Assembly: GCF_028275115.1 (NCBI RefSeq)
Contig: NZ_JAQCNH010000005.1
Coordinates: forward strand, 1-64,000
DNA: 64,000 nucleotides
Reading direction: 5' to 3'
Origin: Halorientalis sp.
GTDB lineage: Archaea > Halobacteriota > Halobacteria > Halobacteriales > Haloarculaceae
Position numbers and translations under genes: made by a program. Under the pieces are notes generated by a model. The model was not told the DNA's origin, ran no database searches, and worked only from the letters and a program-made list of their open reading frames with translations. Positions 3,528-57,676 of the stretch are shown here, piece by piece (within the stretch, counting starts at the first letter, position 1; the number at the start of each line of letters is the position of its first letter).

Positions 3528-4208
3528 ATGAAACGCGGCGGGAATAACGCGCAGAAGCGACGCGCCGGCGAGGCCGCCGCCGACGCCGTCGCGGACGGAC
3601 AGGTGGTGGGACTGGGCACCGGCAGTACCGCGGCCCACGCTATCAGAGCGCTGGGGCGAGCGGTCGACGCTGGCCGCGACGTCGAAGGCATCCCGACCTC
3701 CTACCAGTCGCGGGAACTCGCCCGGAAGGTGGGGTTGCCGACGACGACGCTCGAGGAGGCGTCGCCGGATCTGGCTATCGATGGGGCCGACCAAGTGGTC
3801 GGCAGCGATCTAATAAAAGGCGGCGGGGCGGCCCACGCCCGCGAGAAACTCGTCGATGCCGCCGCCGACCGCCTGCTGGTCGTCGCCGATGAGACCAAAC
3901 TCGCCGAAGCGCTGTCGGTCCCGGTTCCCGTGGAAGTCCTCCCCGACGCCCGTGAACCGGTCGCCGACGGCGTCCGTGAACGTGGCGGCGAACCCACTCT
4001 GCGGGCGGCCGAACGGAAGGACGGACCGGTCGTCACGGACAACGGAAACCTCGTGCTGGACTGCGAGTTCGGGGAGATCGACGACCCCGCCGGCCTGGCG
4101 GCCGACATCTCGGCACTGCCGGGCGTTCTCGAACACGGTCTGTTCGTCGATATGGCCGACGCCATCTACGTCGGGACCGACGAGGGCGCGACGGTCCGAG
4201 AGTCGTAA
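3528..4208 (+). CDS. rpiA: Ribose-5-phosphate isomerase A
   Basis: This enzyme converts ribose-5-P and ribulose-5-P. The 226 residues contain GLGTGSTA (phosphate loop), the IDGADQV motif with catalytic Asp region, the KGGGAAHAREK loop with the general-base Glu and conserved Lys, and LVVADETKLA. I chose the ATG at 3528 because homologues begin MKxxGxNAxKRxAG; an upstream in-frame ATG at 3501 adds nine residues without family support. It is divergent from the phosphohexomutase, and the shared spacer holds a GC-rich inverted CCGCGG pair. Confident call. Confidence 0.95.
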   Translation: MKRGGNNAQKRRAGEAAADAVADGQVVGLGTGSTAAHAIRALGRAVDAGRDVEGIPTSYQSRELARKVGLPTTTLEEASPDLAIDGADQVVGSDLIKGGGAAHAREKLVDAAADRLLVVADETKLAEALSVPVPVEVLPDAREPVADGVRERGGEPTLRAAERKDGPVVTDNGNLVLDCEFGEIDDPAGLAADISALPGVLEHGLFVDMADAIYVGTDEGATVRES

Positions 4209-4258
4209 CCGATGCCCGCGACTGGCGGCCGTGGTACCCGAAAAAAAGAGTCCCCAGC

Positions 4259-4426
4259 CTACAGGTCGCGCGGCTGGACGGTCTTACGGTCGTTTTCCTC
4301 TGCGCGACGCGCAGCGTCCTCGAGCAGTTCGTCGACTTCGTCGTCGAGTGCGTCGTAGAAGTCAGATGCGACGTTCATGTCATTGAGCGCTTCCTTCACG
4401 GCGGCTTTGACGATCAGGTCTGCCAT
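4259..4426 (-). CDS. DUF1931 histone-fold protein
   Basis: This 55-residue protein, MADLIVKAAVKEAL onward, is rich in acidic helices and ends KTVQPRDL, the typical C-terminus of the archaeal DUF1931 histone-fold family. It is too short for a full histone pair, so it probably dimerises. DNA binding is plausible but the surface is acidic, as for halophilic proteins. I chose the ATG at 4426 rather than 4465: the family starts at MADL, and a TATA box sits 25-32 bp upstream, giving a leaderless transcript. Confidence 0.88.
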   Translation of the reverse strand: MADLIVKAAVKEALNDMNVASDFYDALDDEVDELLEDAARRAEENDRKTVQPRDL

Positions 4427-4450
4427 ACAAGCGGTTTTTCCGGAGGGTGA

Positions 4451-4458
4451 TTTAAATA
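4451..4458 (-). promoter_or_regulatory. TATA box of the DUF1931 gene
   Basis: TTTAAATA (read on either strand) is centred about 29 bp before the ATG at 4426. This is the usual spacing for a leaderless haloarchaeal mRNA and it supports the short start. Confidence 0.65.
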
Positions 4459-4708
4459 CTTTCACGTTTGTGCAGTTTCTCGCCGGTACTCACGGGGGTC
4501 TGAGCCGATTTCGCGGCTCCCACTGTTACCTGCATTCGCCGATATTCACCCGATCTCTCGTGTTGCCCCCGCTAGAACCGGTGAGCTGGTCGTGTACACC
4601 CGTTAGCCGGTCGCTCGCGCGCGCTTTGGTCTAAAAGAATATATATCACGTATCCACCATTCGTGGCCGAGTCGATGGGTACGAGTGGGTCGGGCGCGGA
4701 GGAGACGT

Positions 4709-5470
4709 ATGCGCGAGTTGCTCGAAGCGGTCGCAGCGGGCGAGGTGAGTCCCGCCGAGGCACAGGCGGAGCTTGCGGGGTATGCTACCGGCGAGGCGGG
4801 TCGGTTCGACGCCGCACGGGAGGCGCGGGCGGGCGTTCCAGAGGCGATTCTGGCCGACGGGAAAACGACAGCCGAGGTTGCCGACCTGGCGGCCACGTCC
4901 GTTGGGACGACCGGGCGAGCGATCGTGACGCGACTCGACGCCGACGCACTCCCGGCGGTTCGTGAGCGACTGGCGGAGTACGACGTCGAGGACAGGTACC
5001 ACGAGCGCGCCCGGGTACTGATAGCCCACACCGACAGGTTTGAGCGGCCGGAACTGGAGGCGACCGTCGGCGTCGTTACTGCCGGGACATCCGACGCCGA
5101 ACCCGCCGGCGAGGCGGCGGTCCTCGCCCGAGAGATGGGTGCACAGGTCGAGCGCGTCGACGACGTGGGCGTGGCTAGTATCGTCCGTCTGCTCGATCAG
5201 TTGCCCGGACTCCGCGAACTCGACGTACTGATCGTCGCCGCCGGCCGCGAAGGCGCGCTTCCGACCGTCGTCGCCGGACTCGTCGACACGCCGGTCGTCG
5301 GCCTCCCGGTGTCGACAGGTTACGGCCACGCCGGGGACGGTGAGGCCGCGCTCGACGGCATGCTCCAGTCCTGCACCGCCCTGACCGCCGTCAACGTCGA
5401 CGCGGGTTTCACCGCTGGCGCACAGGCCGCGCTGATCGCCCGTACCGTCGACGCCGCCCGTTCGGAGTGA
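4709..5470 (+). CDS. larB: LarB, nickel-pincer cofactor biosynthesis carboxylase/hydrolase
   Basis: LarB carboxylates and hydrolyses nicotinic acid adenine dinucleotide, the first step to the nickel-pincer nucleotide of lactate racemase-type enzymes. This 253-residue protein has an N-terminal helical region and a C-terminal PurE-like domain with VVTAGTSDAEPAGEAA and GLPVSTGYGHAGDGEAAL, both hallmarks of LarB. The ATG at 4709 is chosen because GGAGGAG lies just upstream; a TATA-like atatatat element lies near 4640. No larC or larE is in the window, so partners must be elsewhere or absent. Confidence 0.9.
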   Translation: MRELLEAVAAGEVSPAEAQAELAGYATGEAGRFDAAREARAGVPEAILADGKTTAEVADLAATSVGTTGRAIVTRLDADALPAVRERLAEYDVEDRYHERARVLIAHTDRFERPELEATVGVVTAGTSDAEPAGEAAVLAREMGAQVERVDDVGVASIVRLLDQLPGLRELDVLIVAAGREGALPTVVAGLVDTPVVGLPVSTGYGHAGDGEAALDGMLQSCTALTAVNVDAGFTAGAQAALIARTVDAARSE

Positions 5471-5588
5471 GCACGAAACCGCCCGACAGCGCGGCCCTGT
5501 CTGGATACCTTACTGGTCCGGTATAGAGCATATTTACGTCCGGCCCGTATATATGCTGTCGGCAGATGGTTGTTGCCGGCAGTGACGA

Positions 5589-5738
5589 ATGCCAGACTGT
5601 AATCATTGCGGCGCGCACGTGTCGGATCAGTTTGCTCGGGTGTTTGCGGACGAGTACGGCGAGGTACACGCCTGTCCGAGTTGCTCGGCGAACGCTGGCA
5701 TCGCCGAAGTGGCACGCGAGCGCGCCCACAAAGCGTGA
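5589..5738 (+). CDS. Small CxxC zinc-finger protein, paralogue of 1929-2087
   Basis: This 49-residue protein starts MPDCNHCGAHVS and has a second pair ACPSCSAN, so zinc ligands are C4/C7 and C29/C32. It shares the FARVFA core and basic tail with the protein at 1929-2087. It lies alone between larB and a GIY-YIG gene. An AT-rich stretch with gtatatatgc around 5550 could be its promoter. Function unknown; the frame is supported by the paralogue. Confidence 0.8.
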   Translation: MPDCNHCGAHVSDQFARVFADEYGEVHACPSCSANAGIAEVARERAHKA

Positions 5739-5896
5739 CGGCCACTGTGGCCACCCGAATCGTGGTCTAGACACCACGCGAAGCCCATTTCCGCGGCACT
5801 ACTCCGGCATCGGGCCGGACGACACTGCCCTTTCACTGTTTCCAGATAGCGACGCCGAGCGCAACGCTCACTGTCACCGCGTGTAGAAACAGTGCC

Positions 5897-6142
5897 GTGT
5901 CCGACCACTACGTCTACGTGTTGCGCTGTGCCGACAACACCCTCTATACGGGTTATACGACCGACGTAGAGCGCCGGGTCGCTGAACACGACGCGGGCGA
6001 GGGCGCCAAGTACACCCGTGGCCGCACTCCGGTCGAACTCGTCCACGTCGAGTCCTTCGGGTCGAAGTCGGCCGCCATGTCTCGCGAGTACGAAATCAAG
6101 CAGTGGTCCCGGACCGAAAAGAGACGACTGATCGAGGAGTGA
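5897..6142 (+). CDS. GIY-YIG domain protein (UPF0213/YhbQ type)
   Basis: This 81-residue single-domain protein has the GIY-YIG fold: [18 protein letters not shown] gives the two strands (Y-V-Y and Y-T-G), followed by [10 protein letters not shown] with the conserved Arg, and a Glu in SREYEIKQW. It starts with GTG. UPF0213 proteins act on or bind nucleic acid in repair-like settings, but the precise substrate is not settled. It stands alone upstream of the phosphohexomutase. Confidence 0.9.
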
Positions 6143-8550: not shown

Positions 8551-10476
8551 ATGAGCGAGGCCGACACCGAGTCGCGGGCCGGGCGGGACGAGATCTGGAT
8601 CGAGAAGTACCGTCCGCAGACACTCGACGAGATCGTCGGACAGGAGACCATCGTCGAACGCCTCCGGAGCTACGTCAGCAGGGACGACCTTCCCCATCTC
8701 ATGTTCTCGGGGGAGGCCGGGATCGGAAAGAGTACTGCGGCACTCGCCATCGCCCGGGACCTGTACGGCGAGGACTGGGAAGAACACTTCCTCGAACTCA
8801 ACGCCTCTGACCAGCGCGGGATCGACGTGGTCCGGGAACGGATCAAGAGCTTCGCACGGTCCTCCTTCGGCGGCGCGAACTACCGAATTATATTCCTCGA
8901 CGAGGCGGACTCGTTGTGCGTGCCACCGGGGACCGAGGTCGTCACCGGGTATCCCTCGTCGCCGGAAATAAAGCCGATCGAAGAGGTTGACGAGAGCGGT
9001 GAGCCGATCCCGTCCGTCGACTTCGAGACGAACGAGATACAGTCCGACGCGGGCAAACTCGTAGACTCCGGGGTTGCGGACTTCTTCGAGGTCGAGTTGG
9101 AAGACGGACGGACGATTCTCGCGAGCCTCTCGCATCCGTTTTTCGTCGTCGGTGAGGACGGAACACTCGTCGAGAAGGAACTCCAGGAACTGTCGCCGGG
9201 TGACGAGATCGCCGATTTCAGAGACGACGTCGGCGTGTCCCGATGTGAGATCTGTGGCGACTGGACTGCAGGCCGGTTCTGTTCCCTGAATTGTAAGGAC
9301 GAGGGGCACAGCCGCGAGATACAGGGAGACGGGAACCCGATGTGGGACCCCGAAGTCGCAGAGAAGGTTTCGGAAGCGCTGAGAGGTCACGAACCAACGG
9401 TGGGAGGGAACGTTCGGCACAGTGACGAACTCGGTCACGTCGTTCGATCAGATCGGGAGTACGAGGTCGGAACGGCGTTACAGGATGCCGGAGTCAGCTA
9501 CGAATACGAGCCGAAGTTCGAGCTGTCCGATTCGGCGTATTATCCCGACTTCCAGATCGACGATACGATACTCGAACTGAAAGAACTCGTCGAACTTCGG
9601 GGCGGGGCCGAGAAAGTCGAGGAGTTCCTGGAACTGTACGGTGACGAATACACCGTCGTGGTTGTCGGAGACGAAGAACTTCCTCATCACGAACAGTATC
9701 AAACGGACGAGTTCGAGCCTGCAGTCCTCTCCGACGGCGGAGTGAAGACGGTAGAAACGGCCGAGGTACGCAGCGTCGAATACAGCCACCGTGGCAGGGC
9801 CTACAACATCAGTATGGAGGGAACGCCAAACTTCATGCTTGCCAACGGAGTCTTGACCCACAACACCTCCGACGCCCAGTCAGCACTCCGTCGCACCATG
9901 GAGGAGTTCTCGAACAACGTCCGCTTCATCCTCTCGTGTAACTACTCCAGTCAGATCATCGACCCGATCCAGTCCCGCTGTGCGGTCTTCCGGTTCAATT
10001 CCCTCTCGGACGAGGCCGTCGAGGAGCAGGTCCGGATCATCGCCGAGGAGGAGGATATCGAGGTGACCGACGACGGTGTGGACGCGCTGGTCTACGCCGC
10101 CGGCGGGGACATGCGCCGGGCCATCAACGGCCTCCAGGCCGCCGCGGTCACCGGCGACGTGGTCGACGAGGAAGGGGTCTACGCCATCACGTCCACGGCC
10201 CGCCCGGAGGAGATCCGGGAGATGGTAACGCAGGCCCTGGACGGCGACTTCCTCGCCGCCCGGTCGACGCTCGACGACCTGCTCACGACCGAGGGGATGG
10301 CCGGCGGCGACGTAATCGACCAGCTTCATCGCTCGGTCTGGGAGTTCGACCTGGACGACGAGGCCGCCGTCCAGTTGCTCGACCGCATCGGCGAGGCCGA
10401 CTACCGGATCACCGAGGGGGCCAACGAGCGCATCCAGCTCGAAGCGCTGCTGGCCTCGCTGGCACTGGACGAGTGA
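8551..10476 (+). CDS. rfcS: Replication factor C small subunit, intein-containing precursor
   Basis: RfcS is the AAA+ ATPase of the clamp loader that places PCNA on primed DNA. The 641-residue precursor contains a 316-residue intein (residues 123-438) and a 325-residue host, the normal size. Host motifs: EKYRPQTLDEIVGQ, Walker A GEAGIGKS, Walker B FLDEAD directly before the intein, then TSDAQSALRRTME, sensor SCNYSSQI and the SRC motif with the arginine finger. Host activity needs splicing. The ATG at 8551 gives the family start, and a tttatg box about 28 bp upstream suggests a leaderless mRNA. Confidence 0.95.
   Translation: MSEADTESRAGRDEIWIEKYRPQTLDEIVGQETIVERLRSYVSRDDLPHLMFSGEAGIGKSTAALAIARDLYGEDWEEHFLELNASDQRGIDVVRERIKSFARSSFGGANYRIIFLDEADSLCVPPGTEVVTGYPSSPEIKPIEEVDESGEPIPSVDFETNEIQSDAGKLVDSGVADFFEVELEDGRTILASLSHPFFVVGEDGTLVEKELQELSPGDEIADFRDDVGVSRCEICGDWTAGRFCSLNCKDEGHSREIQGDGNPMWDPEVAEKVSEALRGHEPTVGGNVRHSDELGHVVRSDREYEVGTALQDAGVSYEYEPKFELSDSAYYPDFQIDDTILELKELVELRGGAEKVEEFLELYGDEYTVVVVGDEELPHHEQYQTDEFEPAVLSDGGVKTVETAEVRSVEYSHRGRAYNISMEGTPNFMLANGVLTHNTSDAQSALRRTMEEFSNNVRFILSCNYSSQIIDPIQSRCAVFRFNSLSDEAVEEQVRIIAEEEDIEVTDDGVDALVYAAGGDMRRAINGLQAAAVTGDVVDEEGVYAITSTARPEEIREMVTQALDGDFLAARSTLDDLLTTEGMAGGDVIDQLHRSVWEFDLDDEAAVQLLDRIGEADYRITEGANERIQLEALLASLALDE
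8917..9864 (+). mobile_element. RfcS intein with zinc-finger/NUMOD3-like module and PD-(D/E)XK nuclease
   Basis: The 316-residue intein is inserted after DEADSL of RfcS. It starts with Cys1, has block B SxxH (S70, H73) and ends LTHN before the host Thr, so splicing residues are intact. There is no LAGLIDADG motif. Instead the middle holds a four-Cys zinc site (C110, C113, C122, C126), a NUMOD3-like GDGNPMW (137-143), and YYPDFQI with D211 followed by E220-x-K222, the PD-(D/E)XK nuclease signature. The DNA is visibly less GC-rich than the host exons, as expected for a horizontally moving insert. Confidence 0.88.
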
Positions 10477-48411: not shown

Positions 48412-48969
48412 TCACTCCACGATGGGGGCGAAGTACTTCGGGAGCCGTTTGCGCAGGGCGGCGTAGACGCCGGCACCGGCGACGAGCGAGAGCGTCAGCC
48501 AGCGGATCGGCCCGACGAAGACGAAGACAACCGGGAGCGCGAACGCGGCGGTGACGAGGAAGTCACGCGGCGCGCCGTCGTAGGGCACGACGTACCGTGC
48601 GCGGAGCCACCGGCCGGTGGCGTGACAGTAGACGGCGTTCGGGTTCGTCCGCTCCCAAGGACGCAGTTCCTCCCCGGCACCGAGCGCGTCGCTCGCGGAG
48701 TGGACTGCCGCCGCGAGAAATCCGACGGCGGCCGCGACCGAGAGCGGCGTCGGTGCGGCCAGCGCGACGCCCGCGGCGAGGGCCGCTGGAAGAAACAGCA
48801 GTGCGGGCGCGTGGAGTGTTCGGCGGTGCTGTCCGACGAACAGGTCCACGTCGGGCGCGGCACCGCCGACCGCGCCACCGACCGCGGCGGCGGTCCCCAG
48901 CGACGGCTCGACGGTCGCGACGGCGGCTCCGAGCGCGAGTCCGACCGTGACGTGGGTTGGTGCCATCAT
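48412..48969 (-). CDS. YdjM-like membrane metal-dependent hydrolase
   Basis: This 185-residue membrane protein begins MMAPTHVTVGLALGAAVATV. It has the metal-binding signature APDVDLFVGQHRRTLHAP (Asp and His cluster) and HSASDAL, typical of the YdjM/LexA-regulated membrane-bound family (PF04307) that resembles phospholipase C-type hydrolases. Four transmembrane segments are seen. It is the last gene of the minus-strand block before the CDP-alcohol transferase and may process a membrane lipid. Confidence 0.82.
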   Translation of the reverse strand: MMAPTHVTVGLALGAAVATVEPSLGTAAAVGGAVGGAAPDVDLFVGQHRRTLHAPALLFLPAALAAGVALAAPTPLSVAAAVGFLAAAVHSASDALGAGEELRPWERTNPNAVYCHATGRWLRARYVVPYDGAPRDFLVTAAFALPVVFVFVGPIRWLTLSLVAGAGVYAALRKRLPKYFAPIVE

Positions 48970-49008
48970 CTCTGTGCGGTTCGGGCTGGGGTTGGAGCGG
49001 CACGGGTA

Positions 49009-49773
49009 TCACTGTTCTGTCGGTCGCGGCAGGTAGCCGGTCATAAGCAGGTAGTCCCGCGCAAAAAGCGCCAACGACGGGACCAGCAGGACGGCTGCCG
49101 GGGCCGCGAGCGGCCCGCTCGGCACAACCGGGACCAGCGCGACGGTGACGAACACCATGTGGACACCCGACAGTTGCCGGCGACGGTCGCTCGGCGGCAG
49201 TTCGTGGACGGGTCGGTCGCGACAGCGCTGGAGTCCGCGCCCGGCCTTGAACAGATACCGGGCCGCCGACAGCGACAGGTACCAGATCGGGAGCTGTCCC
49301 CAGACGACGGCGACGACCGGCGCGACCAGGAAGCCGACCGTGTCGAACGCCATGTCGAGCCGTTCGCCGAGACGTGTTCCCCCGCCCGTTCGGCGGGCAA
49401 TCCGGCCGTCGAACCAGTCGAGGGCGACGCCAGTCCCGTAACAGAGTCCGGGGAGCCAGGCGACCACTGTCGTCGGCGGGAGGACGACGAACCCGGCAAC
49501 GGCGGCGTAGAGCCACCCCCGGACCAACGTCACGGCGTCGGCGACCCGCATCGCCGCCCCTGCGGTCGGGAGCAGATTGCGGCGCGAGTGGTAGAACCAG
49601 GCCTCGAAGCCGACGATCGGACCGGCGACGAGCGCCCAGGCGATTGCCGACCCGAAGTCGACGAGCCGTTCGAGGACGGCCGCACCGGCGGCCATCATCA
49701 AGACGCTCCCCCCGCCCAGGAACAGCCATCGCCTGTGTCGCCGGCCAAAGCGCGCGCGCTCGGTCCCGCTCAT
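49009..49773 (-). CDS. CDP-alcohol phosphatidyltransferase
   Basis: This enzyme transfers a phospho-alcohol from a CDP-donor, making a phospholipid or phosphoglycan precursor. The 254 residues hold the family signature DWFDGRIARRTGGGTRLGER with the following DMAFD: D-x2-DG-x2-AR ... G-x3-D-x3-D. Several transmembrane helices surround it. The start (49773) overlaps the end of the Gfo/Idh-AKR fusion by 4 bp, so these two genes are coupled. Alcohol acceptor unknown. Confidence 0.9.
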   Translation of the reverse strand: MSGTERARFGRRHRRWLFLGGGSVLMMAAGAAVLERLVDFGSAIAWALVAGPIVGFEAWFYHSRRNLLPTAGAAMRVADAVTLVRGWLYAAVAGFVVLPPTTVVAWLPGLCYGTGVALDWFDGRIARRTGGGTRLGERLDMAFDTVGFLVAPVVAVVWGQLPIWYLSLSAARYLFKAGRGLQRCRDRPVHELPPSDRRRQLSGVHMVFVTVALVPVVPSGPLAAPAAVLLVPSLALFARDYLLMTGYLPRPTEQ

Positions 49774-51749
49774 CGCTCGAACTCCGGGTCTTCGAGGGTA
49801 GCGATGCGGTCGCGCGCCGCCGCGTCGAGTCGGTCACCGGCCGCCGCCAGGTTCGCGACGACGTGGGTCTCGTCGTTGCTCGACGGAATCGGCACCACTC
49901 CCTCGGTTGCGTTCCAGGTGAGGACGACCTCGGCCGGCGAGCGTCCCCGTTCGGCCGCGATTTCTTCGAGGACCGGTTCATCGAGTAGTCCGGGGGCCGA
50001 GAGCGGGGAGTGGGCGATCACGCGGATGCCTCGCTCGTGGCAGAACTCGACCAGTTCCGTGCGCGGCCGGTACGGGTGGCGCTCCACCTGCACGACCGCC
50101 GGTTGCACCGACCCCGCCGACAGCACCGTCTCGACCTGCTCGCGGGTAACGTTACAGAGGCCGAGCGTCCGCGCCCACCCCCGCTCGTGTATCGTCTCCA
50201 GATTGGCCCACGACTCGGCGAGCGATCGGTCGACGGTCTCGATCTCGCCCGTCTCGTCCTCCGGGAAGGCGACCGCTTCCTGCTCGGCGACCGGTCGCTC
50301 CGCGAGCCGCTCCAGCGGTCCCTGGTACGCCCACGAGTCGGGCCAGTGCAGGGCGTAGCAGTCGAACGCCTCGATGCCGAGTTCGGCACGACTCCCGGCA
50401 CACGCCTCGGCGACGTGGCCGTGGTTCGTGTTCCAGACTTTCCCGAACAAAAAGAGCGCGTCCCGGTCCGGCGTCCCGGGGGCTGCGAGCAGGTCGCCGA
50501 TGCGGTGTTCGTTGCCGTACAGTTCCGCGGTGTCCAGCAGGCGGTAGCCGGCGTCGAGCGCCGTCGCGATGGCGTCGACTCGGTCGACGTACTCGTCGCC
50601 GCCGCGGTAGCGTGAACAACCGAACCCGATCGGCGGGAGCCGAAGCGAGCCGGTGGACGAGTCCGCAGCCGTCCCGGAGGCGTTCTGTCGCGGCCGGACG
50701 ACCGGTCGCGCAGGCCGGGCTGGCGTCACGTCCGAATCGGCGACTGAGGCGGACCCCTCGTCGGCGGCCGCTCGCTCGATGGCTCCACAGATCGCGACGA
50801 CGTGCGCGCCGCGGCGGGCGGTGTCGCAGGGCCGTCGCCCGTCGGCCACCGCGGCCGCGAGTCGCTCGACGCCGTCGAGATAGGTCCCGGCACGGGTCGG
50901 CTGTTGCGGTGGCAGAGGGGTGTACTCGCGGCCCTGGCGGCCGAAAAAGACGGCATCAACGTCGGCGTCGAGTGCGCCGGCGTCCCGGAGCCGCAGGGAG
51001 CCGTCGTCGCCGTGGAGTTCGACGCCGTAGAACTCCCGGCTCCGGTGGGGCGCGTAGAAGCTCGCGGTCAGGCGGACGACCGGGCCGGACGCGAACTCAA
51101 GCGTCGCCTCGACGTGTGTCGGTGCGTCGGGGGTCGCTGACTCGCGGGCCGGCCACACGTCCAGCGCGTCGGCGGCCCGGACCCGCTCGACGGGGCCGAA
51201 CAGTGCGACGAGGACGGTGAGCGGGTAGACCGACCCGTCGTACAGCGGCCCGACCGAGAGGAATCCGGCGGGGCTGTCGTGCCACTCCGTGACCCGGCCA
51301 ACGTGGGCGTATGCGTAGCCCAGGCCGACCCGGCCGAGTCGGCCGTCGGCGACGGCACGGCCGGCGAGTCGCTGTGCCGGACACCGGGGTGCGACCGGCG
51401 CACAACCCAGCGCGCGGTCGCGCTCGGCGGCCATCTCCAGCAGGTCGCGAGCAGTCTCGGCGTCGAGTGCGAGGGGTTTCTCACTGTAGACGTGGCGGTC
51501 GGCGGCGAGCGAGCGCCGCGTCACGGTGGCGTGGGCGCTGTGGCTCGTGAGGTTCACCACGACTGGGGCGTCGACGGCGGCGAGTGCGTCGTCGAGGGCG
51601 GTGAACGCGGCCGCGTCGTGGCTAGCAGCCAGTTGCTCGGCGCGACCGGCATTCGTGTCACAGACCCCTGCGAGTGAGAGCGGGCTATCGGCGAGCTCGG
51701 CCGCGTACTGCTCGGCGACGGCTCCCGCGCCCACGAACAGGCAGTTCAC
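49770..51749 (-). CDS. Gfo/Idh/MocA oxidoreductase fused to an aldo/keto reductase
   Basis: This 659-residue protein joins two NAD(P)-dependent oxidoreductases. Residues about 1-340 are Gfo/Idh/MocA-like: GAGAVAEQYA glycine loop and YSEKPLALD. Residues about 380-659 form an aldo/keto reductase with the full tetrad: Asp and Tyr in LLDTAELYGNE, Lys in FGKVWN, and His in ALHWPDS. A linker of about 40 residues joins them. It probably works on a sugar or polyol in two steps. The GTG at 51749 is chosen because a tttatac box lies close upstream and it gives the first glycine-loop strand. Confidence 0.88.
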   Translation of the reverse strand: MNCLFVGAGAVAEQYAAELADSPLSLAGVCDTNAGRAEQLAASHDAAAFTALDDALAAVDAPVVVNLTSHSAHATVTRRSLAADRHVYSEKPLALDAETARDLLEMAAERDRALGCAPVAPRCPAQRLAGRAVADGRLGRVGLGYAYAHVGRVTEWHDSPAGFLSVGPLYDGSVYPLTVLVALFGPVERVRAADALDVWPARESATPDAPTHVEATLEFASGPVVRLTASFYAPHRSREFYGVELHGDDGSLRLRDAGALDADVDAVFFGRQGREYTPLPPQQPTRAGTYLDGVERLAAAVADGRRPCDTARRGAHVVAICGAIERAAADEGSASVADSDVTPARPARPVVRPRQNASGTAADSSTGSLRLPPIGFGCSRYRGGDEYVDRVDAIATALDAGYRLLDTAELYGNEHRIGDLLAAPGTPDRDALFLFGKVWNTNHGHVAEACAGSRAELGIEAFDCYALHWPDSWAYQGPLERLAERPVAEQEAVAFPEDETGEIETVDRSLAESWANLETIHERGWARTLGLCNVTREQVETVLSAGSVQPAVVQVERHPYRPRTELVEFCHERGIRVIAHSPLSAPGLLDEPVLEEIAAERGRSPAEVVLTWNATEGVVPIPSSNDETHVVANLAAAGDRLDAAARDRIATLEDPEFER

Positions 51750-51831
51750 ATGTATAAACAGTGATTGAACATAATAAACCCGTCCCCGGGTCGCAGCCAA
51801 GGTTGAAGCCGCTCGGGACTACAGTATAGAT

Positions 51832-52200
51832 ATGGGAGAAACGGCCACAGGTGGACGTACAATCGACACGGCATCGCTGTCGCCGCTGCACTGGGCGGCG
51901 TTCGGTCTCGCGGCGGTCACTGGTGTCCTCCACATCTGGCTCGGGGTGCAGTTCATCTCGTCGTCGTTAGGCATCAGCTTCCTACTGGCCGGCGTGGGAT
52001 TCCTCGGAGGCACGGCACTGGTGGCGATTGACTACCGTCGACGCTTCGTCTACGCCGTTGGCGTCCCCTTCACCGCCGTCCAGATCGTCGCCTGGTACCT
52101 GGTGAACGCGCCCGACTTCTCACCTGTCGGCTATCTCGACAAAGCCGTGCAGACCGCCTTCATCGTCGTGTTATTCGTGCTGTACCGGCGGGAGGGGTAG
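51832..52200 (+). CDS. Small membrane protein, haloarchaeal hypothetical (DUF7475-like)
   Basis: This 122-residue protein has four predicted transmembrane segments (WAAFGLAAVTGVLHIWLG, ISFLLAGVGFLGGTALVAI, YAVGVPFTAVQIVAWYLV, TAFIVVLFVLY). The gene begins ATGGGAGAAACGG after a tatagat-like AT stretch. It is followed after 7 bp by the phosphatase-superfamily gene and probably forms an operon with it. Role unknown; family name from memory. Confidence 0.75.
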   Translation: MGETATGGRTIDTASLSPLHWAAFGLAAVTGVLHIWLGVQFISSSLGISFLLAGVGFLGGTALVAIDYRRRFVYAVGVPFTAVQIVAWYLVNAPDFSPVGYLDKAVQTAFIVVLFVLYRREG

Positions 52201-52207
52201 ACAGCCG

Positions 52208-53107
52208 ATGCTCGCCGACGACGCGGGTCGCGGACCGCTCCGGCGGTCGGTCCTCCGGGCCGTTCAGGCGGTCGGTCGCCGGGTCGACTACGGCACGTCG
52301 GTCTACGAACGCGAGTGGGACCTGCTGATCGTCCTCGACGGGTGTCGGCCCGACGCGTTGTCCGCCGTCGGTTCGGCGTTCGAGTTCGTCGACGCTGTCG
52401 ACCGGCTCCGGTCGGTCGGGAGCTGTTCCTCGGAGTGGCTGACCCGAACGTTCGGCCCGGAGCGCGCCGAGGCGGTCGCCGAGACGGTCATGGTGACGGG
52501 CAACACCTGGACCGATCGGTACCTCGACGCCGACGCCTTCGCCGTGCTCGACGAAGTCTGGAAGTACGCCTGGGACGACCAGCTCGGGACGGTCCCGGCG
52601 CAGGCGATCACCGACCGCGCCGTGGCGCTGGCCCGAGACAGAGACCCCGAACGCCTCGTCGTCCACTACATGCAGCCCCACCACCCGTTCGTCCCCGACC
52701 CGCTGGCGGAGGACGACGGGATGGCCCGGAGCGGGGCGCGGAGCAGCAACGCGAACCCGTGGGTGGCGCTTCGGCGCGGCGACGTGTCGGTCGAACGTGT
52801 CCGGGCAGCGTACGAGGCGAACCTCCGGTACGCCCTCGAGTCGGTCTCTGTCGTCCTCGACAACGTCGCGGCCGACCGCGTGGCCATCACCGCCGACCAC
52901 GCCAACCTCTTCGGGGAGTGGGGGCTGTACGGCCACCCCATGCACACGCCGGTACCGGCGCTGCTGGCCGTCCCGTGGGTCGAGACCGAGGGACGGGACC
53001 ACGGGACGCACGACCCAGCGTGCACCCCGCCTGAGCCGTTACCGGTGGGTCGGGTCTACGGGGACGGCGACGAGACCGACCGGCTCGACGCGTTAGGATA
53101 TCGCTGA
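52208..53107 (+). CDS. Alkaline-phosphatase/sulfatase superfamily protein
   Basis: This 299-residue protein has LIVLDGCRPDAL, the metal-binding Asp-Gly-Cys strand typical of the superfamily, and ITADHANLFGEWGLYGHP with the conserved Asp-His pair and a later His. This is like haloarchaeal sulfatase-like proteins that act on phosphate or sulfate esters of glycans. No signal peptide or transmembrane anchor is visible. It sits in the PTPS/MDR biosynthetic locus, after a small membrane protein. Substrate unknown. Confidence 0.82.
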   Translation: MLADDAGRGPLRRSVLRAVQAVGRRVDYGTSVYEREWDLLIVLDGCRPDALSAVGSAFEFVDAVDRLRSVGSCSSEWLTRTFGPERAEAVAETVMVTGNTWTDRYLDADAFAVLDEVWKYAWDDQLGTVPAQAITDRAVALARDRDPERLVVHYMQPHHPFVPDPLAEDDGMARSGARSSNANPWVALRRGDVSVERVRAAYEANLRYALESVSVVLDNVAADRVAITADHANLFGEWGLYGHPMHTPVPALLAVPWVETEGRDHGTHDPACTPPEPLPVGRVYGDGDETDRLDALGYR

Positions 53108-53127
53108 TATCGCGTGCGCGCGGCTCA

Positions 53128-53165
53128 GCGTCGTCCTGGATTTCCGGCGTCGTCCTGGATTTCCG
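53128..53165. repeat. Exact tandem 19-bp duplication in the MDR-gene leader
   Basis: The 19-bp unit GCGTCGTCCTGGATTTCCG occurs twice without spacer (53128-53146 and 53147-53165). It lies just before a TATA-like tttttatc at 53176, so the duplication may alter promoter upstream sequence. Only two copies are seen. Confidence 0.85.
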
Positions 53166-53205
53166 GCACACACAGTTTTTATCTGCTACAGTACTTGGAC
53201 ATGGC

Positions 53206-53286
53206 ATGGCGATCCAGGCTGCGTCGACGTTGCAGACCGAGTTTGCGAATCGGATCAACGACCGTCGCTGCCGAGTCCGAGCGTGA
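53206..53286 (+). CDS. Possible short leader ORF before the MDR gene
   Basis: ATG at 53206 opens a 26-residue frame MAIQAASTLQTEF...RVRA ending TGA at 53284-53286, 6 bp before the GTG of the MDR gene. A second ATG at 53201 starts an overlapping frame. A tttttatc element near 53176 places the likely mRNA start near 53201, so a leaderless short ORF is plausible. It could regulate or couple translation of the MDR gene. Evidence is only positional. Confidence 0.35.
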   Translation: MAIQAASTLQTEFANRINDRRCRVRA

Positions 53287-53292
53287 TTGACT

Positions 53293-54297
53293 GTGGATAC
53301 ACGCTCGCTGTACTTCACTGGACCACGTGAGGTGACGGTTCGCGAACGCCCGGTCCCGGACCCCGGGCCCGAGCAGGTCCGGGTCAAGACCGAACGCTCG
53401 GCTATCAGCCCCGGAACGGAGCTGTTGCTCTACCGGGACGAAGTCCCGGCCGACATCGACATCGACGAGACCATCGACGCACTCGACGGGACGCTCTCGT
53501 ACCCGCTGCAGTACGGCTACGCGGCCGTCGGCCGCGTAAGCGAGACCGGCACCAGCGTTGACGACGACTGGGAGGGCCGACGCGTGTTCGCGTTTCACCC
53601 CCACGAGAGTCACTTCCTCGCGTCGCCGTCGGAACTGATTCCGATCGACCAGCCCGCCAAGCGGGCGACACTGCTCGCCAACGCCGAGGCCGCGGTCAAC
53701 TTCGTGATGGACGGCCGCCCGCGGGTCGGTGACCGGGTCGTCGTGTTCGGGCAGGGGGTCGTCGGCCTGCTGACGACCGCCATCCTCGCGGAGTTCCCAC
53801 TCGGCGAACTGGTGGCTGTCGACCCGTACGAACGACGGCGAGAGGTGTCGAAGCAACTCGGTGCGGACGCTGCCGTGCCCGACGCCGCGGCGCTCGAGTC
53901 GGCAGTGGCGACGGAGTACGTCGACGGTGCGGACGTGACCTTCGAGGTGTCGGGCAACCCGGACGCGCTCGACGACGCCATCGACGCGACGGGCTACGCC
54001 GGGCAGGTAATCGTCGGCTCGTGGTACGGCAACAAGCCGGCGACCCTCCACCTCGGCGGAGAGTTCCATCGTAGTCACGTCCGGGTCCGGAGCAGCCAGG
54101 TCAGCCGTATCGACCCGGATCACACCGGTCGCTGGGACAAAGAGCGGCGGCTCTCGCTTGTCCGTGACCTGCTAGCCGACGTCGACGTGTCGGCGCTGGT
54201 CAGCCACGAGTTCCCGGTCGAGCGGGCCAACGACGCCTACGAACTGCTCGACAACGCACCCGAACAGACGCTGGGTGTCGTGTTGACCTACGAGTGA
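53293..54297 (+). CDS. MDR-family dehydrogenase (zinc-alcohol-dehydrogenase-like)
   Basis: This 334-residue protein has the medium-chain dehydrogenase/reductase layout: N-terminal beta domain with RPVPDPGPEQVRVK and ISPGTELLLYRDE, the core GYAAVGRV, and a Rossmann domain with VVVFGQGVVGLLT and LVAVDPYERRRE. The usual catalytic-zinc Cys-x-His pair is not visible, so catalysis may not use zinc. It resembles the BchC/haloarchaeal oxidoreductase subgroup. It begins the transcriptional block ending with the methyltransferase. Substrate unknown; an oxidation of an alcohol in the same pathway is inferred. Start GTG 53293 or TTG 53287. Confidence 0.85.
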   Translation: MDTRSLYFTGPREVTVRERPVPDPGPEQVRVKTERSAISPGTELLLYRDEVPADIDIDETIDALDGTLSYPLQYGYAAVGRVSETGTSVDDDWEGRRVFAFHPHESHFLASPSELIPIDQPAKRATLLANAEAAVNFVMDGRPRVGDRVVVFGQGVVGLLTTAILAEFPLGELVAVDPYERRREVSKQLGADAAVPDAAALESAVATEYVDGADVTFEVSGNPDALDDAIDATGYAGQVIVGSWYGNKPATLHLGGEFHRSHVRVRSSQVSRIDPDHTGRWDKERRLSLVRDLLADVDVSALVSHEFPVERANDAYELLDNAPEQTLGVVLTYE

Positions 54298-54442
54298 CGG
54301 GAGATGTACGCAGCCCCGAACGGGCGAACAAGGAGCACCGGCGACTCGCGAACCGCCGGACGGGCGAACGCTCCGGGGCACGACTCCGGTGTCCCCGCGC
54401 CGGTAGCGGGAGACTTAGGTGGCGACAGTTCGTGGTACCGGT

Positions 54443-54835
54443 ATGTACACAGTCACGGTGCTGGAATCGTTCGTCGCACAGCACTTTCTCACTGTACCGA
54501 ACCCAGGCCCAGAGGGGGAACCACACACTCACCACTACGAGGTCGAACTCACGTTCAGGGGGCCGGAGCTAAACGAGTTCGACTACCTCGTCGACATCGA
54601 CGACGTGGAGGCGGCGATGGACCGACTCCACAGTCGCTACGCCGACACGATGCTCAACGACCTGCCGGAGTTCGAGGACCACAACCCGAGCGTCGAGCGG
54701 TTCGCAGAGGTGGTCTGGGAGCGTGTCACGGACGAGGTAACGGACGAGACGGTCACAGAACTGGCGGTGACCATCTGGGAAGACGAGCAGGCCCACGCGG
54801 CGTACGAGGCGTCGGTCCCATGCGCGTCGGCCTAA
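54443..54835 (+). CDS. 6-pyruvoyl-tetrahydropterin-synthase-fold protein lacking the catalytic Cys
   Basis: This 130-residue PTPS/QueD-fold protein has zinc His residues (H14 in VAQHFL; H28 and H30 in PHTHHYEV). A LNDLPEFEDHNPSVERFA helix carries the NPSxE motif, and VTIWEDEQ carries the conserved C-terminal Glu. The Cys that normally lies just before the second His pair (as in QueD) is absent. It is therefore unlikely to make queuosine or biopterin precursors as usual, and may act on another substrate. The end overlaps the GT start by 16 bp. Confidence 0.83.
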   Translation: MYTVTVLESFVAQHFLTVPNPGPEGEPHTHHYEVELTFRGPELNEFDYLVDIDDVEAAMDRLHSRYADTMLNDLPEFEDHNPSVERFAEVVWERVTDEVTDETVTELAVTIWEDEQAHAAYEASVPCASA

Positions 54836-55890
54836 CTCTGTACGGGAGCCTCGATGGACAGTCGGGCGGGTTCCGGTACGACCGGCGGCTCGTCGAAGGT
54901 CTCCGGGATGCCGGCGACACCGTCGACGTGATCGAACTCCCGCGACGGAAGTACGCGCGCGGCCTGCTCGACAATCTCTCGCCGTCGCTGCAGGACCGTC
55001 TCGCCGTCGACGTGGACGTGATGCTACAGGACGAACTCGCCCACCCGTCGCTCGTTCGGGCGAACCGGGACCTGCCGTACCCGGTCGTCAGCGTCGTCCA
55101 CCACCTGCGGGCCAGCGAAGAGCGCCACCTCGCCGGTCTGTACCGCGCCGTCGAGCGTCGCTACCTCGGCGGCGTCGACGCCGCCGTCTGCAACAGCACC
55201 GCGACCCAGGCGTCCGTGACCGCGACCGGTGGCCCGCCATCGGCCCGGACGGTCGTCGCTCCGCCTGCCGGCGACCGATTCGACCCCGATATCGACGCCG
55301 AGACGATCGCATCGCGGGCTCGCGACGGCCCGCTCAGGATTGCCTTCGTGGGAAACATCGAGCCACGGAAGGGTCTGGACACGCTGGTCGACGGGCTGGC
55401 AGCGGTAGACGAGTCCTGGGAGTTGACAGTGGTCGGGCGGGCAGAGAATCCCTCCTACGTCCGGACCGTCGAGAACCGAATCGCTAGCAGCGGAGCGGGC
55501 AACCGCATCGACCTGCGCGGGCGACTCGCCGACGACGACCTCGCGGCCGTCCTCCGTGACAGTCACGTTCTGGCGATTCCCGCCCGCCACGAAGGGTTCG
55601 GTATCGCCTATCTGGAGGGGATGAGCTTCGGCCTGCCGGCGGTCGCGTCGGCCGCGGGCGGGGCGGTGGACTTGGTGACGCCAGGCGAGACGGGGGCGCT
55701 GGTCGAGCCCGACGACCCGGCTGCCGTGACACGAGCCCTCGGCGCGCTCGCCCGGGACCGCGACCGGCTGGCGCGGATGGGACAGGCGGCGCGTGAGCGA
55801 TACGACTCCCATCCCGATTGGCCCGAGACCACCGCGCGAGTCCGGGCGTTTCTGGCGAACGTGGCCGGCGACGGGGGGGCCGTCGGATGA
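54820..55890 (+). CDS. GT4-family glycosyltransferase
   Basis: This 356-residue GT-B-fold protein has a C-terminal donor-binding domain with FVGNIEPRKGLDTLVDGL, LRGRLADDDLAAVL, and the acidic motif ARHEGFGIAYLEGMSFGLPAVAS typical of GT4 (E-x7-E). The N-terminal domain starts MRVGLTLYGSLDGQSGGFRY. It overlaps the PTPS-like gene by 16 bp and the methyltransferase by 4 bp, strongly implying a joint pathway. Sugar and acceptor are unknown. Confidence 0.92.
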   Translation: MRVGLTLYGSLDGQSGGFRYDRRLVEGLRDAGDTVDVIELPRRKYARGLLDNLSPSLQDRLAVDVDVMLQDELAHPSLVRANRDLPYPVVSVVHHLRASEERHLAGLYRAVERRYLGGVDAAVCNSTATQASVTATGGPPSARTVVAPPAGDRFDPDIDAETIASRARDGPLRIAFVGNIEPRKGLDTLVDGLAAVDESWELTVVGRAENPSYVRTVENRIASSGAGNRIDLRGRLADDDLAAVLRDSHVLAIPARHEGFGIAYLEGMSFGLPAVASAAGGAVDLVTPGETGALVEPDDPAAVTRALGALARDRDRLARMGQAARERYDSHPDWPETTARVRAFLANVAGDGGAVG

Positions 55891-56807
55891 CGGCCGACGA
55901 CTTCCAGCGGTACCTCGACGCGAAGCGGTCCGTCGACGACAGGAGTCTGGACCGGCGGCTCTGGCGGCAACTCGGGACGGCGCTCTCGACGGCGGCCGAC
56001 GACGAGGGACCGTTCCGGCTGCTGGAGGTCGGCGCCGGGGTCGGAACGATGGTCGAGCGGGCCGTCGAGTGGGACCTTCTTCCCGAGGGCCAGGACGTGG
56101 TGTACACCGCGGTGGATGTCCAGACCGAAAACACCGACGCGATTCCCGACCGCCTCGCGGACTGGGCCGACGGCCGCTCCGTCGAGACCACGGAACGGGC
56201 CGGTGGGGTCGACCTCGTCTGGCCGGAGCGGACCGTGGCCGTGGAACCCGTGACGACCGACGCGACGGGGTTCGTCGCCGGCACCGACCGGTCCTGGGAC
56301 CTGCTGGTCGGGATGGCCGTCCTCGACGTGATCGGGCTGGACGAACTGCCGACGCTGCTGTCCGGGCTCGCGCCCGGCGGGCACTGGTATTTTCCGATCA
56401 CCTTCGACGGCGGGACGCGGTTCACGCCGGACCACCCGGCCGACGACGCCGTCGAGCGCGAGTACCACGGCCACATGGACACAAAGGAGGGCGGAGACAG
56501 CCGCGCGGGCCAGCACGCACTGGCGCGGCTCCGGGAGACCGACGAGGCGACGGTCTCTGGCGTCGCGGGGTCTGACTGGGTCGTCTACCCGGACGGGAGC
56601 GGATACCCCGGCGACGAGGCGTACTTCCTGCGGTACGTGCTGGGAACCGTCGAGGAGGCGCTCGGCGAGGTAGACAGGGGCGCGGACCTCGACGACGACA
56701 GCCTCGACGACTGGCTTCGGACGCGCCGCGAGCAGGTCGCGTCCGGGGAGCTAGTGTACGTGACGCACCAACTCGACCTGCTCGGGAGGTGGGCGGGCAG
56801 TGGGTGA
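55887..56807 (+). CDS. Class I SAM-dependent methyltransferase-like protein
   Basis: This 306-residue protein has a SAM-binding motif LLEVGAGVGTMVERAV (about residues 42-60) and a motif II-like VVYTAVDVQ strand. The VVYTAVDV and DLLVGMAVLDVIGLDELPTLL stretches fit the Rossmann fold; the lid and substrate residues are not diagnostic. Its start overlaps the GT end by 4 bp (ATGA). A methyl or related group may be added to the glycosyl product. Substrate unknown. Confidence 0.88.
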   Translation: MTADDFQRYLDAKRSVDDRSLDRRLWRQLGTALSTAADDEGPFRLLEVGAGVGTMVERAVEWDLLPEGQDVVYTAVDVQTENTDAIPDRLADWADGRSVETTERAGGVDLVWPERTVAVEPVTTDATGFVAGTDRSWDLLVGMAVLDVIGLDELPTLLSGLAPGGHWYFPITFDGGTRFTPDHPADDAVEREYHGHMDTKEGGDSRAGQHALARLRETDEATVSGVAGSDWVVYPDGSGYPGDEAYFLRYVLGTVEEALGEVDRGADLDDDSLDDWLRTRREQVASGELVYVTHQLDLLGRWAGSG

Positions 56808-56887: not shown

Positions 56888-57676
56888 GTGACAAATACGC
56901 AGGTTACGCTGATCCAGATCGACAACTACGGGCCCTGGACAGTCACGCCGACACCGCGCCGGGAAGTTGATCTTCAAACAATGCAATCGCGGCTGTATGC
57001 CGACGTGTCACAGCTCGTCGGCAATCGTCAGGGATACGCATTCTTCGGCCGGTTCGACAACATGGTCGCCGTGACCAACGGGCTCGGCGTCGAAGACATC
57101 GCACTGGTACAGGAGTCCATCGGCAACCGATATCCGGTCACCGCGAGCGTGAGCGTCGCGGTGGACGCGTCGCCGGTCGCCGCACTCGGCCGTGCCTCGG
57201 ACCGTCTCCAGGAGGCAGGCAGTGCACAGGACGAAACCCGCAGCGAGATACTCCGCGGCGAGACACTGGCCGAGGCCGAGCGCACGCCAGACGACGTGCA
57301 GATCGCCCACTTCGACGTGAACGACGCCACCGGCAAGTACACGGACAAACTCAACGAGTTCGACACGTTCATTCGGATCGAACAGGGGTACGCAGAGTTG
57401 ATGCGGTACATGCGACAGGCACACGAGTCGCTGTCGTTTTTCGTCGGGGGCGACAACGTCATCGCGGTCTGTGCCGACCTCAACGCCGAGGACTATCAAG
57501 ACGCGATCGACCACGTCAACGAGGCCGTCGACGTCGACCTCAAGGTTGGTGTCGGACAATCGGGCGTCGCCCAGGCCGCCGGAATGGCCGCCAAGCACGC
57601 ACTGGAGGAGTGTCGGGAGGAAGAATCACCGGTCGAATTCGCCGAACCGCCGCGGGTGGCTGTCGACGACGATTAA
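56888..57676 (+). CDS. arfA: GTP cyclohydrolase III (ArfA)
   Basis: GTP cyclohydrolase III opens GTP to 2-amino-5-formylamino-6-ribosylaminopyrimidinone phosphate, the first archaeal step to F420 and riboflavin. The 262-residue protein begins VTNTQVTLIQIDNYGPWT, with the family motifs GRFDNMVAVTNG and SFFVGGDNVIAV, the latter with the metal-binding Asp. The GTG at 56888 is chosen since homologues start here. It follows the putative biosynthetic locus after 80 bp; co-regulation is unknown. It ends convergently with the CinA-like gene by 4 bp. Confidence 0.93.
   Translation: MTNTQVTLIQIDNYGPWTVTPTPRREVDLQTMQSRLYADVSQLVGNRQGYAFFGRFDNMVAVTNGLGVEDIALVQESIGNRYPVTASVSVAVDASPVAALGRASDRLQEAGSAQDETRSEILRGETLAEAERTPDDVQIAHFDVNDATGKYTDKLNEFDTFIRIEQGYAELMRYMRQAHESLSFFVGGDNVIAVCADLNAEDYQDAIDHVNEAVDVDLKVGVGQSGVAQAAGMAAKHALEECREEESPVEFAEPPRVAVDDD

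Follow-up and report, generated by a model that had tools for sequence, protein, structure and literature searches.

Cyanobacteria, Chlorobium and Sulfolobus are known to make pterin glycosides (PMC3546692, PMC5683033, PMC13259868). A related pathway described in haloarchaea is that of riboflavin, in which deletion of arfA (HVO_1284) leads to riboflavin auxotrophy; the role of ArfA and the gaps in this pathway have been discussed without the gene cluster considered here (PMC8305020). The cluster lies in the window, by which we mean the whole analysed stretch of 64,000 nucleotides from the start of contig NZ_JAQCNH010000005.1 (Halorientalis sp., assembly GCF_028275115.1), and contains genes for a medium-chain dehydrogenase/reductase (MDR), a PTPS-like T-fold protein, a GT4 glycosyltransferase and a methyltransferase. 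Judging from the protein families involved, we think it fairly probable that this module encodes a cross-domain pathway in which a GTP-derived, pterin-type core would be glycosylated, methylated and probably phospho-linked to a lipid, while the exact chemistry, the lipid linkage and the function of the locus are what we infer.

The neighbourhood of the PTPS gene is conserved far beyond chance. We scanned 80 loci from named genomes with the PTPS family and clustered all neighbouring reading frames without bias, and the most frequent neighbours proved to be precisely the module genes: MDR (66 loci), GT4 (61), methyltransferase (59) and CDP-alcohol phosphatidyltransferase (CDPOH; 45), followed by the membrane protein DUF7475 (42), a fusion-length Gfo/Idh–aldo/keto reductase (AKR) family (41), the sulfatase-superfamily protein (19) and ArfA (18). 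An earlier sequence-only reading of the window had named conserved gene order in haloarchaea as the check on its proposal, and the order is indeed conserved in the 63 PTPS loci flanked on each side by 7 kb or more, the set behind the percentages of loci given here. The core genes occur in about 90% of these loci (GT4, counting either of two families, 92%; MDR 90%; methyltransferase 90%), CDPOH and DUF7475 in 70% each, the Gfo/Idh-AKR fusion in 52%, a YdjM-like or distantly related (c10) membrane protein in 37%, and the sulfatase-superfamily protein and ArfA in 32% each. The outer flanks vary between loci while the module genes stay.

Arrangement A, that of the window, is found in Halorientalis, Haloarcula, Natronomonas and Halorubrum, and arrangement B (DUF7475-CDPOH-MDR-PTPS-GT4-methyltransferase) in Natrialbaceae and others. 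Arrangement C reads Gfo/AKR-CDPOH-(ArfA)-MDR-PTPS-methyltransferase, with a different GT4 (c11, Pfam Glycos_transf_1) on the opposite strand; that one GT4 has been swapped for another at the same locus indicates that the function is selected, not the gene. A Haloferax-type genome (L086) has the compact version ArfA-MDR-PTPS-GT4. Directly behind its GT4 gene lies a convergent dihydrofolate-reductase-like gene (9487-10269, minus strand), which was not found in other loci.

PTPS of the locus type is present in 172 of the 292 genomes of the class and absent from 120, whereas ArfA is present in 286; the module is thus accessory, and we interpret it as a mobile unit for biosynthesis. It is gained or lost as one block, as seen in the module-less congener G086 (L087, 9570-13871), in which CinA, ArfA, cupin and helicase genes are contiguous and the whole module is missing between ArfA and the cupin gene when compared with the window-type locus of G058 (L088). 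The cupin, helicase and CinA-like neighbours were rejected as module genes: they form the backbone beside ArfA in L087 and are found near 3-6% of the other copies.

A link to GTP comes from ArfA itself. All of the ten best matches in the class to the divergent ArfA of arrangement C lie within ~2 kb of a PTPS gene (genomes G275, G097, G227, G198, G236, G253, G069, G273, G050 and G131), and nine of these ten genomes, the exception being G050, carry another ArfA elsewhere. In the ArfA tree, the type-C locus proteins form a deep 100/100 clade outside every housekeeping ArfA. Those of type A, from the window, Halorientalis, Haloarcula, Halovenus, Haloglomus and two further copies in the assembly that contains the window, form a 99/92 clade with only two non-module members, separate from the ArfAs that are the housekeeping copies in Halorientalis and Haloarcula-like genomes. 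Two or more copies of ArfA occur in 32 of 172 genomes with PTPS versus 6 of 120 without it (Fisher P 4e-4, uncorrected for relatedness; counts tallied by hand from the class-wide PTPS and ArfA searches). In the Haloferax-type genome, the only ArfA is the one directly upstream of MDR-PTPS-GT4. A start from GTP is well supported, and the scaffold is most likely GTP-derived, because ArfA closes the window operon and because GTP cyclohydrolase II (GCH II) and a RibD_C reductase replace it beside the bacterial core. In five near-complete genomes of genus g6 (G079, G089, G140, G145 and G269), no ArfA was found at E 1e-15, so that riboflavin and F420 synthesis either starts otherwise there or is absent.

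The proximity of ArfA, together with the gaps that the haloarchaeal riboflavin pathway still has (PMC8305020), would also fit an explanation in which the module genes supply missing steps, such as the phosphatase or deaminase, of ordinary archaeal riboflavin/F420 synthesis. We regard this as quite improbable, since the module is accessory while ArfA is near universal, many genomes hold a separate housekeeping ArfA, the bacterial copies are plasmid-borne, and GT4, methyltransferase and CDPOH take no part in making riboflavin or the F420 head group.

The module is not restricted to haloarchaea. A tblastn search of plasmids with the Streptomyces protein SCO6650 recovered the MDR-PTPS-GT4-methyltransferase core in Streptomyces, Microbacterium, Rhizobiaceae, Methylosinus and Thiodictyon, with GCH II and/or RibD_C in place of ArfA. 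In Streptomyces fungicidicus the core is accompanied by CDPOH, an LPG_TM-like frame, creatininase and ribA; in Thiodictyon by cytochrome b561, RibD_C, CDPOH and a sulfatase-like gene; in Methylosinus by RibD_C; and in Peteryoungia and Rhizobium SL42 by sulfatase, LPG_TM, CDPOH and ribA on one side and RibD_C and cytochrome b561 on the other. Palleronia has ribA-MDR-PTPS-methyltransferase-RibD_C, the Neorhizobium locus has a Gfo/Idh gene nearby, and further loci were found in Rhodobacteraceae SC52 and Microbacterium. Nine of 11 annotated bacterial PTPS loci contain MDR and methyltransferase, eight of these nine have GCH II and/or RibD_C, and CDPOH is present in five of the nine MDR-PTPS loci. 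Identity between the bacterial and window proteins is 31-36% for MDR, 26-33% for GT4, 28-40% for CDPOH (aligned parts) and ~21-26% for PTPS.

According to Pfam, RibD_C stands alone, with no deaminase domain, in L093, L095 and L105, and L084 combines GCH II and RibD_C. Since RibD_C lacks the deaminase domain, the 2-amino group would stay, which fits a pterin-type product. In L084 and L066, loci from metagenome-assembled genomes (MAGs) labelled Bacteroidetes, a haloarchaeal-type MDR-PTPS-(GT4)-methyltransferase set follows a single GCH II-RibD_C fusion gene (identified by BLAST in L066), and transfer between halophilic archaea and bacteria is likely here. The GCH II of S. fungicidicus has Met (LRAMALQ) where L084 and L066 have Tyr (LKAYNLQ, LKAYDLQ); we take this Met to be the change by which SCO6655 yields only the formylamino-pyrimidine that is also the product of ArfA. 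A creatininase-type gene, of the family of the ArfB deformylase, adjoins the S. fungicidicus GCH II gene, and if our assumption about SCO6655 is correct, Streptomyces and haloarchaea share the first two reactions by means of unrelated enzymes. Among other archaea, a low-GC euryarchaeon (L144) has methyltransferase-GCH II-MDR-PTPS-GT4 followed by creatininase and FolE2. This is the only locus with FolE2 nearby; as first enzyme, ArfA or GCH II was found in place of GTP cyclohydrolase I. Other euryarchaeal MAGs (L145, L146) retain MDR-PTPS with few other module genes.

The joint conservation of GT4, CDPOH, sulfatase-like and membrane proteins, as well as the LPG_synthase_TM and sulfatase genes of the Rhizobiaceae copies, would also be expected of a cell-envelope locus for a phosphoglycolipid or surface glycan, in which the fold of the PTPS-like protein would have been recruited for a substrate other than a pterin. 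Such an origin appears decidedly unlikely to us: it leaves unexplained why ArfA, GCH II, RibD_C and creatininase were repeatedly recruited beside MDR-PTPS in two domains, and the most minimal version of the locus is MDR-PTPS (L145), not GT4-CDPOH.

The PTPS-like protein belongs to the COG0720/PTPS superfamily, matching PF01242 and having three zinc histidines and an anchor Glu. H14, H28 and H30 of the zinc site and E113, at the pterin-anchor position of PTPS enzymes, are invariant in 52 PTPS-like sequences, as are E24 at the position of the catalytic Cys and D68 at that of the catalytic His. The closest solved relative is SCO6650 (PDB 3d7j; profile E 3e-17 versus 9e-9 for QueD), and in the bacterial homologues the positions of E24, H30 and D68 are occupied by Ala, Ala and Tyr. 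On these residues, the protein represents a distinct subfamily, predicted to have its own chemistry. Public annotation calls it 6-carboxytetrahydropterin synthase, which would make it a QueD of archaeosine/queuosine synthesis with unrelated neighbours. We rejected this assignment, and its probability is close to negligible: the protein has neither the Cys before HGH nor the Asp-His dyad of QueD, elsewhere in the same MAG, a second gene, of QueD-like type, has the CSRPHGH and DH motifs and is followed by a radical-SAM gene, and 120 of 292 genomes lack the module.

MDR accompanies PTPS more consistently than any other module gene, and the pair is kept where most other module genes are missing (L145). 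Its best NCBIfam match, below cutoff, is TIGR01202 (BchC), and it groups with polyol and threonine dehydrogenases and BchC. In GT4, which is nearest to MshA, PimB/PimA and sucrose-phosphate-type enzymes, E258 and E266 of the EX7E motif are invariant in archaeal and bacterial members. The methyltransferase has no Pfam family match; it conserves an LExGAGxGT motif, and its AlphaFold model (pLDDT 95) has the class I S-adenosylmethionine (SAM)-dependent methyltransferase fold. The profile of the sulfatase-superfamily protein matches choline-sulfatases in its C-terminal half, and its AlphaFold model is poor (pLDDT 62). CDPOH has the DxxDGxxAR...G...D...D motif, and none of D119, D122, G123, A126, R127, G136, D140 and D144 varies among 25 members from archaea and bacteria.

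These families make a lipid-linked product plausible. The product could instead be a soluble, glycosylated and methylated pterin resembling cyanopterin, with CDPOH forming a phosphodiester to another alcohol, and the glycosides of cyanobacteria, Chlorobium and Sulfolobus offer a parallel (PMC3546692, PMC5683033). We consider this possible, if on the unlikely side, given that the CDPOH profile is nearest to choline- and phosphatidyl-transferases, which are membrane phospholipid enzymes, and that membrane proteins are conserved in the module. 'Phosphohalopterin', known from Halobacterium, was considered as the product and found no support: the term is absent from the literature searched, and a genus of ten genomes without PTPS in one family may be Halobacterium.

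For the favoured GTP-derived, lipid-linked product, the gene content supports a first step in which ArfA, or GCH II in bacteria, would open the imidazole ring of GTP to give a 2-amino-pyrimidine ribonucleotide. Deformylation would follow, and RibD_C would reduce the ribosyl to a ribityl group without deamination, keeping the 2-amino-4-oxo pattern; the bacterial genes support this step, and in haloarchaea housekeeping ArfB and ArfC probably serve. MDR may then oxidise a ribityl hydroxyl, which at C2' would give an Amadori ketone, and the PTPS-like enzyme, with its zinc-site T-fold, may close or remodel the ring to a dihydropterin-like product; C2' oxidation and closure on the 5-amino group would yield a dihydroneopterin-like compound. 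As their families suggest, GT4 would add a sugar and the methyltransferase a methyl group, with Gfo/Idh-AKR shaping the sugar or side chain. More tentatively, CDPOH might couple the product to a (di)ether lipid, and the phosphatase-superfamily and membrane proteins might act in processing or membrane handling. A bolder and unlikely reading is that the product is a lipid-anchored, glycosylated and methylated pterin with a redox or light-absorbing role in the membrane, made by a new route from riboflavin-type ring opening that bypasses GTP cyclohydrolase I. Such a route would run through ArfA or GCH II, RibD_C reduction, re-oxidation of the ribityl chain by MDR and T-fold ring closure.

Several findings weigh against the proposed pathway. 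Only 32% of the haloarchaeal loci have a GTP cyclohydrolase within 8 kb, so that most must rely on a housekeeping copy, and ArfA sits at the empty site of the module-less congener (L087) and hence can occur without the module. Solitary SCO6650-like PTPS genes without a cluster are present on Streptomyces plasmids (L099, 8001-8399; L100, 8001-8426). In the alignment, MDR has no evident catalytic zinc ligands (Cys, GHE), the consensus there being SPGTE and YGYAAVG, and its reaction may therefore not be a classical alcohol oxidation. Finally, the bacterial PTPS proteins lack one zinc histidine and both catalytic positions, so that shared chemistry is not assured.

Within the window, the nine genes listed on two strands by the sequence-only reading were all recovered in their places (48412-56807; Table 1), and the overlapping starts and stops it had noticed are real: 4 nt at 49770/49773, 16 nt at 54820/54835 and 4 nt at 55887/55890. 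The plus-strand genes are closely packed, the last two of these overlaps joining PTPS, GT4 and methyltransferase. The right end had been set too early, at 56807, and ArfA, the next gene on the same strand, was missed. Our results support the proposal of an undescribed biosynthetic locus that uses glycosyl transfer, methylation and phospho-alcohol transfer. The further idea, that polyol/sugar oxidoreductases lead to a small molecule or lipid carrying a glycosyl or phospho link, overlooked the probable GTP-derived scaffold to which ArfA and the bacterial GCH II and RibD_C point, leaving the earlier interpretation as a whole partly supported.

Table 1. Genes of the module in the window, with coordinates, strand and supporting match
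Gene product	Coordinates	Strand	Match
YdjM-like membrane protein	48412..48969	-	PF04307, 30.6 bits (cutoff 29)
CDP-alcohol phosphatidyltransferase	49009..49773	-	PF01066
Gfo/Idh/MocA-aldo/keto reductase fusion	49770..51800 (exact start uncertain)	-	PF01408, PF22725 and PF00248 in a single frame
DUF7475 membrane protein	51832..52200	+	PF24287
Sulfatase/alkaline-phosphatase-superfamily protein	52208..53107	+	PF00884, weak, 20.4 bits (below cutoff 25)
MDR dehydrogenase, BchC/polyol-dehydrogenase-like	53287..54297	+	PF00107
PTPS-like T-fold (COG0720) enzyme, variant active site	54443..54835	+	PF01242, 93.6 bits
GT4 glycosyltransferase	54820..55890	+	PF00534
Class I SAM-dependent methyltransferase	55887..56807	+	SAM fold in AlphaFold model
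ArfA, GTP cyclohydrolase IIa/III	56888..57676 (GTG start at 56888)	+	NF002587, 404.5 bits (cutoff 306), E 2e-121

The window contig is part of a fragmented MAG, and its PTPS is 87-89% identical to Halorientalis PTPS. Two more module copies, one per short contig, occur in the same MAG (L004, 1-9876; L005, 1-5949), with PTPS ~70% identical; they probably come from other organisms in the bin, which would then mix several haloarchaea. In L005 a photolyase/cryptochrome-like gene (3960-5945, minus strand) adjoins the module ArfA, which may be chance.

More than half of the sampled haloarchaeal genomes (172/292), together with scattered actinobacteria, proteobacteria and a few other lineages, thus appear to invest in an undescribed compound. 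New heterocycle chemistry is indicated by the dedicated extra copies of a riboflavin-pathway enzyme and by the altered active site of the PTPS, and thousands of genes annotated as 'QueD' or 'zinc alcohol dehydrogenase' may be mislabelled. The compact Haloferax-type locus makes the question directly testable in a tractable genus. A description of the cluster was not found in the literature searched; prior notice is possible in papers on COG0720, on the archaeal riboflavin regulator and on SCO6650/SCO6655.

Among known systems, SCO6650 (3d7j) is the nearest solved PTPS relative, and the MDR-PTPS-GT4-methyltransferase order is shared with the bacterial neighbourhood: the homologue in S. fungicidicus (91.7% identity to SCO6650) sits in CDPOH-MDR-PTPS-GT4-methyltransferase with creatininase and ribA. 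In the bacterial protein of this type, Ala occupies two active-site positions and one zinc-histidine position, whereas the haloarchaeal protein keeps three His and the invariant Glu and Asp. With QueD and PTPS-I, II and III (COG0720) the haloarchaeal enzyme shares the T-fold, the zinc-histidine positions and the pterin-anchor Glu, but the Cys is replaced by Glu and the Asp-His dyad by a variable residue and Asp. ArfA is common to the locus and the archaeal riboflavin/F420 pathway (ArfA-ArfB-ArfC), and the bacterial loci share GCH II, RibD_C and creatininase-type genes with it; the locus differs in adding MDR, the PTPS-like protein, GT4, methyltransferase and CDPOH, and in having no deaminase domain. 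The nearest chemical precedent is provided by the known pterin glycosides. Those made in cyanobacteria and Chlorobium (PgtA, BGluT, CtPGT) likewise combine a GTP-derived pterin with a dedicated glycosyltransferase, and the biopterin synthesis behind them also has a PTPS-type step. Their pathway begins with GTP cyclohydrolase I (PMC3546692), whereas the module described here has ArfA or GCH II and, in addition, MDR, methyltransferase and CDPOH.

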